Shown here piece after piece: positions 11,055 to 14,392 of a DNA stretch of 44,022 nucleotides (the first letter of the stretch is position 1; every line of letters starts with the position of its first letter). The notes under the pieces were generated by a model that had not been told where the DNA came from, did no database searches, and worked only from the letters and a program-made list of their open reading frames with translations. This DNA comes from Lachnospiraceae bacterium. Its GTDB lineage: Bacteria; Bacillota; Clostridia; Lachnospirales; Lachnospiraceae. Both the position numbers and the translations under genes were made by a program. The DNA is taken from assembly GCA_018384375.1 (NCBI GenBank), contig JAHAYJ010000054.1, positions 1-44,022 on the forward strand, written 5' to 3'.

Positions 11055-11327
11055 TTATTTTGACACAGTTAGCTTTAACCCTAAAGGACGCAATATTTTT
11101 AAAAGTGTAGTAATGTTCGGATTAGTTTGCATGGATTCAATTCTTGCGACAGAGGACTGCGGAATGCCACAAATGGCTGCAAGGTCACGCTGACTTAAGC
11201 CAAGCTCGTTACGTTGTTTGATGACGGCAGCGATGATGCTTGCTTGTTCTTCAATGTCCGACAAATCCCTGCCACTATCAGGATCTGAAGCTTTTACATA
11301 TTCTTTATAATCATTCCAGTTTTTCAT
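11055..11327 (-). CDS. HigA-type antitoxin, XRE family
   Basis: A 90-residue helix-turn-helix protein. It begins KNWNDYKEYVKASDPDSGRDLSDIEEQA, typical of antitoxins paired with phage Gp49/RelE-like toxins. The XRE fold is at about residues 30-85 (ELGLSQRDLAAICGIPQSSVARIES). It should neutralise the toxin and repress the operon. The start is ATG 11327, 9 bases after AAAGGA; ATG 11333, which overlaps the toxin stop, is the alternative. Toxin first, antitoxin second is the HigBA order. Confidence 0.85.
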   Translation of the reverse strand: MKNWNDYKEYVKASDPDSGRDLSDIEEQASIIAAVIKQRNELGLSQRDLAAICGIPQSSVARIESMQTNPNITTLLKILRPLGLKLTVSK

Positions 11328-11332
11328 AAACA

Positions 11333-11695
11333 TTAATCCTTTCGAGCTAGATAATCATCGCGTTCTGCCTTGGCTTTATTAATTTGGCGGCGTGGTGTCT
11401 TCTGGGTCTTCTTGCGAAAACTATGAAGAAGTATAAAGCTGTTATTGCCATAATAAAAATAGAAAATACGGTTATTACCGGGACGAAGCTCCCAGATGTT
11501 TTCCTCGATGTGTTTGGTAATATTTTCGGGAAGCATAGTACCATTGTTTTGCAATAACTCTATGCAAAGAACTGTTTGGTTATATTGTATGCGGGCATCT
11601 TTACTCGTGGCTGATTTCTTACGTAGTTTTTCAAGGAAACTCCATATTTCGGATTCGCCGTTTGCTTTTTCATAGAATATGATATTATATGCCAT
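11333..11695 (-). CDS. HigB/RelE-like toxin (phage Gp49-like family)
   Basis: A 120-residue protein of the RelE/ParE superfamily. Seen: MAYNIIFYEKANGESEIWSFLEKL at the N-terminus, WELRPGNNRIFYFYYGNNSFILLHSFRKKTQKTPRRQI towards the end, and a KAKAERDDYLAR tail. This is the usual layout of ribosome-dependent mRNA interferases. TTGGAG lies 5 bases before ATG 11695; longer frames to 11752 run into the promoter. Its stop codon overlaps the second ATG choice of the antitoxin. Activity is inferred from the family. Confidence 0.85.
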   Translation of the reverse strand: MAYNIIFYEKANGESEIWSFLEKLRKKSATSKDARIQYNQTVLCIELLQNNGTMLPENITKHIEENIWELRPGNNRIFYFYYGNNSFILLHSFRKKTQKTPRRQINKAKAERDDYLARKD

Positions 11696-11723
11696 AGTAT
11701 CTCCAATCTGCATATTCATATCC

Positions 11724-11752
11724 TGTTTAAATGATAGCATAGATGCTGTCAA
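11724..11752 (-). promoter_or_regulatory. promoter and operator-like palindrome of the toxin-antitoxin operon
   Basis: On the minus strand TTGACA (11752-11747) and TAAACA (11729-11724) have a 17-base spacer. The palindrome AGCAT-AG-ATGCT (11736-11747) abuts the -35 box and is a plausible site for antitoxin autorepression. Confidence 0.5.
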
Positions 11753-11810
11753 AACGCAACACGCAGATATTATTTATGCAAGAAATTTATTAGAAATGAT
11801 CGTAATAGTT

Positions 11811-11827
11811 GTTATAATAATTATAAC
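11811..11827. repeat. perfect palindrome GTTATAAT-A-ATTATAAC
   Basis: A 17-base perfect inverted repeat about 40 bases upstream of the -35 box of the acyltransferase promoter and about 60 bases upstream of the toxin-antitoxin promoter. Possibly an operator; no protein partner is known. Confidence 0.4.
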
Positions 11828-11866
11828 ACAAACATGTGTTCGAATCAATGACAAAATTGAAAAATG

Positions 11867-11896
11867 TTGTGTCGAACCCTGTCGAACTGCTATAAT
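11867..11896 (+). promoter_or_regulatory. promoter of the acyltransferase leader
   Basis: TTGTGT (11867-11872), 18-base spacer, TATAAT (11891-11896) preceded by TGC (extended -10). Transcription would begin near 11903, exactly where the repeat-rich leader starts. Confidence 0.55.
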
Positions 11897-11904
11897 GTAA
11901 TAGC

Positions 11905-11946
11905 GCAGAAGAAAACCAAGCGACGCCGGAGGCGGCATTTGGTTTT
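11905..11946 (+). repeat. 42-bp direct repeat, copy 1
   Basis: Begins GCAGAAGAAAACCAAGCGAC and ends CATTTGGTTTT. Identical over 42 bases to 12025-12066, 120 bases apart. Each copy folds into a long hairpin with a GGA loop. Confidence 0.9.
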
Positions 11947-12024
11947 CAAGCGCTATTAACGAGCAAACAGACTGCGAAGCAGACAGGAAGCACCGAAGGT
12001 GCTAGTTTGCGAGTATACAACCGG

Positions 12025-12066
12025 GCAGAAGAAAACCAAGCGACGCCGGAGGCGGCATTTGGTTTT
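12025..12066 (+). repeat. 42-bp direct repeat, copy 2
   Basis: Second exact copy of 11905-11946. It ends 12 bases before the ATG of the acyltransferase, so its hairpin could affect access to the ribosome site. Confidence 0.9.
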
Positions 12067-12078
12067 GAGGGGGGAACA

Positions 12079-13344
12079 ATGAAAATACGAACGAAAGAAA
12101 TGCCTTATGACAAGGTGTTGGCGCTGCCGCGCAGCTTACATGAAAAACCAAGGAAGCAGAGTGTAATATTCAGAATGCTGATGAAGGTATTGTCCTTTTT
12201 TGATCTGCTCCGGATAGGCTTTGAATATCAAAAAATCGGAATGGAAAAGCTTGCACCAGGACAGCCTTGTCTGATCTTGATGAATCATTCCTGTTTCCTG
12301 GATCTGGAAATGATTGCAGATCTTTTTTATGATCGGTCGTATCAGATTATCTGTACATTGGATGGATTTGTAGGTAAAAAATGGCTGATGCGTATGCTTG
12401 GCTGTATACCAACCAAAAAATTCATATCAGATCCCGTTCTTGTACGCGATATGGTCTATGCGGTGAGGACGCTAAAAAGCTCTATTGTCATGTATCCGGA
12501 AGCAAGCTACAGCTTTGACGGAACGGCGACTGCACTTCCCGACAGTATCGGAAAATGTATTAAGCTGCTGCAGGTTCCTGTCATTATGGTGTGTTCCTAT
12601 GGCGCTTTTCTGCGTAACCCCTTGTATAACAATTTGCAGGTACGCAAGGTAAAGGTCAGTGCAAAGGTGGAATATCTCTTTTCGCCGGAGGATATTAAGA
12701 ACAAGTCGGCACAGGAATTGAAGGAAATTCTGGATGAACATTTTTCCTTTGATCATTTTCGATGGCAGCAGGAAAATCAGGTTCGAATTACAGAGAGGTT
12801 TCGTGCGGACAGCCTAAACCGGGTACTGTACAAATGTCCAAACTGTCTGACAGAGGGGAAGATGGCCGGAGAGGGAATTTATCTTACCTGCGGAAGCTGT
12901 CATAAGAAGTATGAGCTGACAGAATACGGTTTTATGAAGGCTGTGGAAGGAGAGACAGAAATTCCGCATATTCCGGACTGGTATCGCTGGGAAAGAGAAT
13001 GTGTAAAAAAGGAACTTCAGGATGGAACCTATCGACTGGAACGGCAGGTTGATATCTATATGATGGTAGACTCCAGTGCGGTTTATAAGGTTGGCGAGGG
13101 AATACTGCAGCATACCGGAGAAGGGTTTCACCTGACCGGCTGTGATGGCAAGCTGAATTATACACAGACCCCGGAAAGCTCCTACAGTCTTTATTCTGAT
13201 TTTTATTGGTATGAGATCGGGGATGTGATCTGTATCGGAGACGCTGCTACGCAGTATTATTGCTTCCCGAAAGGGACAGGGGATATTGTCGCGAAAACAA
13301 GATTGGCAGCAGAGGAGTTATATAAACTCACAAAAGCCGTATAG
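12079..13344 (+). CDS. PlsC-like acyltransferase with C-terminal zinc ribbon
   Basis: A 421-residue protein. The lysophospholipid/1-acylglycerol-3-phosphate acyltransferase domain has the HX4D motif NHSCFLD (His70, Asp75). The usual PEGTRS block appears as PEASYSFDG (about 140-148), so the substrate-binding Gly-Thr is altered. A zinc ribbon with CPNC and CGSC (about 259-288) and a C-terminal domain of about 130 residues of unknown role follow. The ATG at 12079 sits behind GAGGGGGG. The frame is open further upstream through the repeats, but without a ribosome site. Probably membrane-associated; the acyl acceptor is unknown. Confidence 0.8.
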   Translation: MKIRTKEMPYDKVLALPRSLHEKPRKQSVIFRMLMKVLSFFDLLRIGFEYQKIGMEKLAPGQPCLILMNHSCFLDLEMIADLFYDRSYQIICTLDGFVGKKWLMRMLGCIPTKKFISDPVLVRDMVYAVRTLKSSIVMYPEASYSFDGTATALPDSIGKCIKLLQVPVIMVCSYGAFLRNPLYNNLQVRKVKVSAKVEYLFSPEDIKNKSAQELKEILDEHFSFDHFRWQQENQVRITERFRADSLNRVLYKCPNCLTEGKMAGEGIYLTCGSCHKKYELTEYGFMKAVEGETEIPHIPDWYRWERECVKKELQDGTYRLERQVDIYMMVDSSAVYKVGEGILQHTGEGFHLTGCDGKLNYTQTPESSYSLYSDFYWYEIGDVICIGDAATQYYCFPKGTGDIVAKTRLAAEELYKLTKAV

Positions 13345-14339: not shown

Positions 14340-14392
14340 ATGTTGTTTCAAAAATAATGGTGGAATGTCAAGAAAGAAAGGAGCAACAAATT

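Follow-up and report, generated by a model that had tools for sequence, protein, structure and literature searches.

The structured element that precedes an acyltransferase gene in the window (the whole 44,022-nt stretch of Lachnospiraceae DNA that was analyzed) likely belongs to a family of structured interspersed repeats in Lachnospiraceae that are mobile but non-autonomous. It is best read as BOX/REP-like in behavior and is probably now co-transcribed as a 5′ leader. We favor the mobile repeat because (i) copies are dispersed; (ii) the copies have a fixed left boundary; (iii) orthologous promoters are found free of the element; and (iv) close relatives differ in the copies they carry.

Structure and covariation of the element

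The element is a unit of about 125 bp, composed of a P1 hairpin and an M2 junction and sometimes extended by a partial second unit. The parts of the window copy are listed in Table 1. Two exact 42-bp copies, spaced 120 bp apart, were present as described in the first-pass annotation of this DNA, and folding recovered the architecture that it had proposed, with long hairpins closed by a C(GGA)G loop flanking a junction that bears two GAA-looped hairpins (z −5.51; none of 200 shuffled sequences folded as well). The inner stem of P1 contains a conserved AAGCG/GCATTT mismatch motif. With regard to P1′, 61 of 154 copies have a loose CAAGCG-like motif 95 to 420 nt past the point where the element begins.

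Table 1. Features of the element and its immediate surroundings in the window
Feature	Position	Strand	Basis
Extended −10 sequence (TGC-TATAAT) bordering the element on its left	11888..11896	+	sequence
P1 long hairpin, C(GGA)G loop	11898..11958	+	fold, covariation
P1 outer stem, TAATAGCGC/GCGCTATTA	11898-11906 / 11950-11958	+	fold, covariation
First exact 42-bp copy	11905..11946	+	sequence
M2 helix AC-GA-GCAAAC...GTTTGC-GA-GT with opposed GA dinucleotides, around two hairpins	11959..12014	+	fold, covariation
M2 hairpin A, C(GAA)G loop	11972..11982	+	sequence, fold, covariation
M2 hairpin B, C(GAA)G loop	11990..12002	+	sequence, fold, covariation
P1′, a partial repeat of P1 that lacks the outer stem; corresponds to the other exact 42-bp copy	12025..12066	+	
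Downstream acyltransferase gene (PF01553)	12079..13344	+	neighbor, outside the element

The relationship of the element to its promoter and gene was only partly as first described. An extended −10 sequence does abut the element; the transcript had been proposed to start exactly there, while a start 7 nt past the hexamer would fall at about 11903, inside the P1 outer stem and not at 11898. A sigma-70 consensus scan of positions 11600 to 12400 returned four promoter-like sites, and TGC-TATAAT was not among them because no −35-like hexamer is found at 16 to 18 nt. The last hairpin does end 12 bases before the ATG, as had been reported. An open frame running through the element into the acyltransferase, which on our reading appears to carry a CxxC...CxxC pattern, was found in the window (61 open codons upstream of the ATG, giving a frame of 482 aa vs 421 aa from the ATG). 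In G023, the closest relative found, the acyltransferase is 96% identical and 424 aa long, yet the frame is open for just 3 codons upstream, which means that G023 does not conserve it. The earlier statement that the element matches no riboswitch class was borne out by the Rfam covariance models, which gave no match between 11850 and 12120 at E-values up to 10.

The sole Rfam match in the whole window at gathering scores was a T-box leader elsewhere (RF00230, 14094-14306, + strand, 100.6 bits), located 5′ of a putative threonyl-tRNA synthetase ORF at 14357. On the other side of the element, a gene pair at 11055-11752 (− strand) encoding a Gp49-like protein (PF05973) and an HTH_3 protein resembles a toxin-antitoxin pair.

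Covarying base pairs, which the first-pass annotation had named as something to look for, were found among the copies. The 154 distinct P1 copies yielded 102 full P1 plus M2 units, of which 90 remained after removal of near-duplicates and 91 when the window copy was added; 70 of these were aligned as type A and 11 as type B, with 10 longer or odd units omitted. In type A, two-sided changes were present in at least one sequence for 32 of the 44 pairs, and pairing was found in 94.8% of the cells, compared with 32 to 46% in versions of the alignment that were slid. Neither value was reached in any of 500 shuffles, a count that is not to be taken as a probability since related sequences can beat shuffles without structure; the slid controls and a test of the outer arms agree with the shuffle result. 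In the latter, at least 8 Watson-Crick pairs were formed by the arms with their own partners in 40 of 116 elements vs 21 of 4158 mismatched pairings. The outer stem is thus nearly free in sequence, yet each arm fits its own partner, and the stems vary even among copies within one genome (e.g., TAATAGCGC, TATCCTGTCAG, and TAACCCATCGG). This covariation strongly supports that the fold of the element is real.

Whether the strand folds as RNA or DNA is not told apart by the stem mismatches (24 G.T, 9 A.C, and 41 other), since these are too few. The hairpin loops are mostly GNA or GNNA. When the 91 units were folded singly, GNA accounted for 188 of 209 triloops and GNNA for 45 of 55 tetraloops (27 GNRA and 18 with a pyrimidine at the third position), and the closing pair was C-G in 227 of 271 loops. 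One tetraloop was UUCG, a loop favored in RNA, and GNA and GNNA loops are tolerated in RNA as well; for these two reasons the loops can hint at folding as DNA but do not prove it. The hint lies in the predominance of GNA and GNNA loops, which when closed by at least two G-C pairs are described as forming extraordinarily stable DNA mini-hairpins (PMC4686876).

Dispersed copies and their left boundary

Copies of the element were found at dispersed sites in its own genome and in scattered members of the family. When the 180-base piece was used as a query against the own genome, 21 matches were obtained, several being fragments of a single copy or chance hits. Based on the sequences and on R1, a covariance model of P1 built from 8 copies of this genome, about 13 dispersed loci were counted, with contigs C31 and C69 merged as one split copy, C59 and C111 treated likewise, and antisense matches, second-hairpin matches, and one weak C4 match left out. 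Within the genus, 25 of 37 genomes match the P1 model at E-values up to 0.01. A pattern scan of genome_contigs detected at least 116 stretches; of the 116 listed, 80 were tested with the model, which matched 79 of them but not a Bacteroidales record. The records are mostly labeled Lachnospiraceae or one of its genera, with some labeled Clostridium sp., Eubacteriales, Bacillota, or bacterium. With a second model, R2, matches were obtained in 15 of 120 Lachnospiraceae genomes (E-values up to 1e-9) and in 3 of 148 genomes of the class sample (1e-6), all three Lachnospiraceae; the own genome is included in both counts, and samples of more than 40 genomes were searched with stricter filters, by which weak copies are missed. 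Thus, the repeat family is found here in scattered Lachnospiraceae members and in none outside the family in the class sample. A literature search over the titles and abstract starts of open-licence papers showed no description of the element among the matches listed, an absence that is weak evidence.

Carriage on plasmids or phages was considered and rejected. Only 2 of 72,556 plasmid records match, both of Lachnospira eligens, and 2 of 50,697 phage records, of which the one inspected is an unannotated, unverified fecal scaffold. Two stretches were found in viral_contigs; one matches model R2 and has a groEL-like end, and is therefore probably bacterial. Several other observations were made among the copies. 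A third subfamily (L102, L346, L353, and L074) has an M2 of the form CGACA...GG and an outer stem with GCGC, and a nearly perfect long palindrome of low model score (L075:1501-1572) looks unrelated to the family. The G123 copies (L314-L324) are near-identical, and several of them end at contig ends; we read these as a recently active subfamily.

The left boundary of the copies is fixed at (TATR)ATRTA, where two kinds of site were distinguished. In copies that do not overlap a stop codon, TATAAT is present at 5 or 6 of 6 positions in 102 of 118, vs 18 of 148 for a control window of the same width located about 67-82 nt upstream. The other kind comprises 36 of the 154 copies, in which a long upstream frame terminates within element positions 1-12, such that its stop codon and the element overlap; 13 of these also have TATAAT at 5 or 6 of 6. 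The stop is placed exactly at element positions 8-10 in 22 of the 36, among which T6 is found in 22 of 22 and A5 in 20 of 22, neither being required by the stop, while the best TATAAT is no better than 4 of 6 in 17 of 22. These 22 copies are not independent, with 17 distinct left ends among them, and several of the stop-codon copies are groEL or thyA ends, where the end of the protein may dictate T6. At the right end, a general TATAAT repeat was rejected: across 90 units, 5 or 6 of 6 positions matched in 21 vs 20% in shuffles, and a perfect hexamer was found in 7 vs 1.6%, and the feature is confined to G123, in which 6 of 11 loci have TATAAT on both sides, and one subfamily.

The copies are mostly oriented with the gene that follows. 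Using simple longest-ORF calls, a co-oriented downstream ORF was found in 112 of the 129 copies that had ORFs called on both sides, whereas 6 were antisense to both neighbors; a Lachnospira eligens copy (strain ATCC 27750) lies between two co-oriented genes, one encoding an MBL-fold protein and the other hemZ. Clustering of the 147 downstream ORFs gave 121 clusters, with no common function and no pathway link of the riboswitch type; by their sequences, some of the ORFs resemble folA, murA, malic enzyme, rlmL, phosphoglycerate mutase, and a small-subunit ribosomal protein. Copies in front of unrelated genes are what the first-pass annotation had given as pointing to a MITE-like repeat.

Orthologous loci with and without the element

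Two promoters were found in both filled and empty form. In G000 and G023, the element stands behind TAGAAT in the malic-enzyme promoter; relatives that include G009, G010, G025, and G031 have in common with them TTGCAC and a 17-bp spacer, followed by TATGAT or TAGAAT, and the element is absent. Similarly, the rlmL promoter of G005 and G011 reads GATTGTGGTATAAT without the element, while G000 and G023 have the same sequence with one base changed, followed by the element. The P1 model matches both loci in G000 and G023 and none of the 56 other malic-enzyme and rlmL loci fetched (28 per gene), including those flagged by a looser pattern in G013, G002, and G024, the last of which has just 93 nt upstream at its rlmL locus. 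Promoter sequences were compared at 17 malic-enzyme and 13 rlmL loci, out of 30 for each gene. Since relatives keep the −10 box without the element, we conclude that the element entered existing promoters. The host leaders are too diverged for an exact right junction or a loss of host bases to be read from them.

At the 3′ end of groEL, the model matches 6 of 30 loci. G023 has no element there, though it matches G000 at 100% identity over the GroEL part and sequence further downstream is common to both. Across species, at least five other outer stems were found at groEL-like ends (G016, L131, L139, L341, and L354), a variety that suggests that elements arrived at one spot, or replaced each other there, more than once. 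The groEL 3′ ends of G013, G017, G022, G023, and G030 share GCGTATAAACAG-CGATGCG directly past the stop, and this stretch (L262, L269, L271, L255, and L276) occupies the place that the element has in relatives. At four sites (groEL, folA, the window locus, and rlmL), absence or truncation of the element distinguishes G000 from G023; which of these are gains and which are losses is inferred. Since four loci differ between such close relatives, the element is hardly a part that the genes need.

The acyltransferase locus itself was examined in six orthologues of at least 63% identity (own included). The P1 model matches only the own locus, which has the full element, and that of G023, which has the second hairpin part alone; the other four loci gave no match. 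As judged from these sequences, a regulatory RNA of the acyltransferase is not supported. Thus, of the two readings offered by the first-pass annotation, the mobile structured repeat is retained and the new cis-regulatory RNA tied to this gene is not, although the element may have a regulatory effect on some genes.

Proposed spread of the repeat, alternative explanations, and significance

The following route is proposed for the mobile repeat. An enzyme supplied in trans would recognize the folded single strand and spread the repeat, which would insert past −10 boxes or onto stop codons with an ATNTA motif. Insertion behind a −10 box would leave the promoter working, such that the mRNA would begin with the structured repeat, which would be tolerated; upon insertion at a stop codon, the repeat would simply follow the gene. 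Any influence on mRNA life or translation would be a side effect, sometimes kept by selection, and later recombination between P1 and P1′ may have generated the tandem and truncated forms that were seen. A more specific version, which we consider unlikely, is that the hairpin travels as single-stranded DNA and inserts directly 3′ of the −10 box, into the strand that is melted in the open complex. It would thereby land gene-oriented with the promoter unbroken, and the GNA/GNNA loops, extra stable in DNA, would mark the single-stranded intermediate; the open complex as target is a conjecture consistent with the position and the loops. Set against the mobile repeat are that no transposition was seen and neither a mobilizer nor a clean target duplication was found, and that the outer stems differ among the copies of one genome, whereas an ordinary MITE has ends common to its copies. 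In addition, some sites recur across species (groEL, folA, and murA), which could be explained by selection too.

Three alternatives were weighed. The element could be a cis-regulatory leader RNA that binds a protein or metabolite and controls a set of unrelated genes, with two alternative pairings made possible by the ability of P1′ to pair with the 3′ arm of P1. The absence of a common function among the downstream genes makes this unlikely in our estimation, as does the finding that 36 of the 154 copies, groEL ends among them, lie on an upstream stop codon and that most orthologues lack the element while close relatives differ; such a leader would nonetheless account for the strong covariation, the position just behind the −10 box, the co-orientation with genes, and the partial P1′ of the C59 copy, which leads into AAGGAG ahead of the start codon. 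A further point against the leader is that in 32 promoter-class rows the outer stem keeps its pairing at columns 9-11, probably upstream of the start site, though just 8 of the 96 cells vary with pairing kept on both sides. A domesticated repeat kept as a 5′ mRNA stabilizer, in which the hairpin at the 5′ end blocks a 5′ exonuclease, is improbable to a greater degree: promoter-class copies do have a hairpin at the predicted 5′ end and some sites do recur across species, but the stop-codon copies and the Lachnospira eligens copy are not obviously at a 5′ end, and the four loci that differ between close relatives again speak against retention.

Movement of a REP-type element by an IS200/RAYT-like Y1 (HUH) transposase is the least probable of the three, and we give it very little weight. 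The imperfect palindrome, stable hairpin loops, and fixed orientation to the target motif that were seen here would fit such an element, and Y1 genes were found in 21 of 37 genus genomes. The carriers G023, G008, G015, G016, G021, and G024 gave no Y1 match, although draft genomes could miss the gene. The Y1 transposase was rejected as the mobilizer on the grounds that its presence does not track the copies.

REP/BIME elements, which are associated with RAYT transposases, are imperfect palindromes that are extragenic and spread within lineages. The element shares these three properties (BIMEs are also covered in PMC3049150) and differs in that no Y1 transposase was found in several of its carriers and most of its copies are at promoters. 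BOX of Streptococcus pneumoniae, as portrayed in PMC3049150, is likewise a small interspersed repeat that is modular and expandable, strongly folded if transcribed, able to carry open reading frames, and thought to have spread as a mobile repeat. BOX is, however, over-represented between convergent genes (PMC3049150), whereas 112 of 129 copies of the element precede a co-oriented ORF; the host family is another one, the element starts at a −10 box or stop, and the two are likened by features. Correia elements of Neisseria are reported to lie mostly immediately upstream of genes, one of them being inserted immediately downstream of the mtrCDE promoter in a placement like that of the element (PMC10969869). 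Correia elements carry their own sigma-70-like promoters according to the same source, while the −10 box of the element is common to element-free relatives at two loci and its outer stems differ between copies. MITEs are characterized in PMC3049150 as short, dispersed, highly base-paired, and AT-rich, with terminal inverted repeats and a target site duplication. The element is short, dispersed, and highly base-paired; its unit is 49% G+C vs 44% for the window and so is not AT-rich, and its outer stems pair but differ, leaving no terminal inverted repeats common to the copies. As to a target duplication, TATAAT flanks the element on both sides in 6 of 11 G123 loci but not in general.

If the mobile repeat is correct, a repeat family for which we found no earlier description would provide many genes of a major gut family with structured leaders, and would show insertion concentrated at the −10 box. 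In these genomes, covariation in a leader may point to a repeat and not to a riboswitch. Furthermore, the filled and empty versions of one promoter would make the effect of a structured leader on expression testable.
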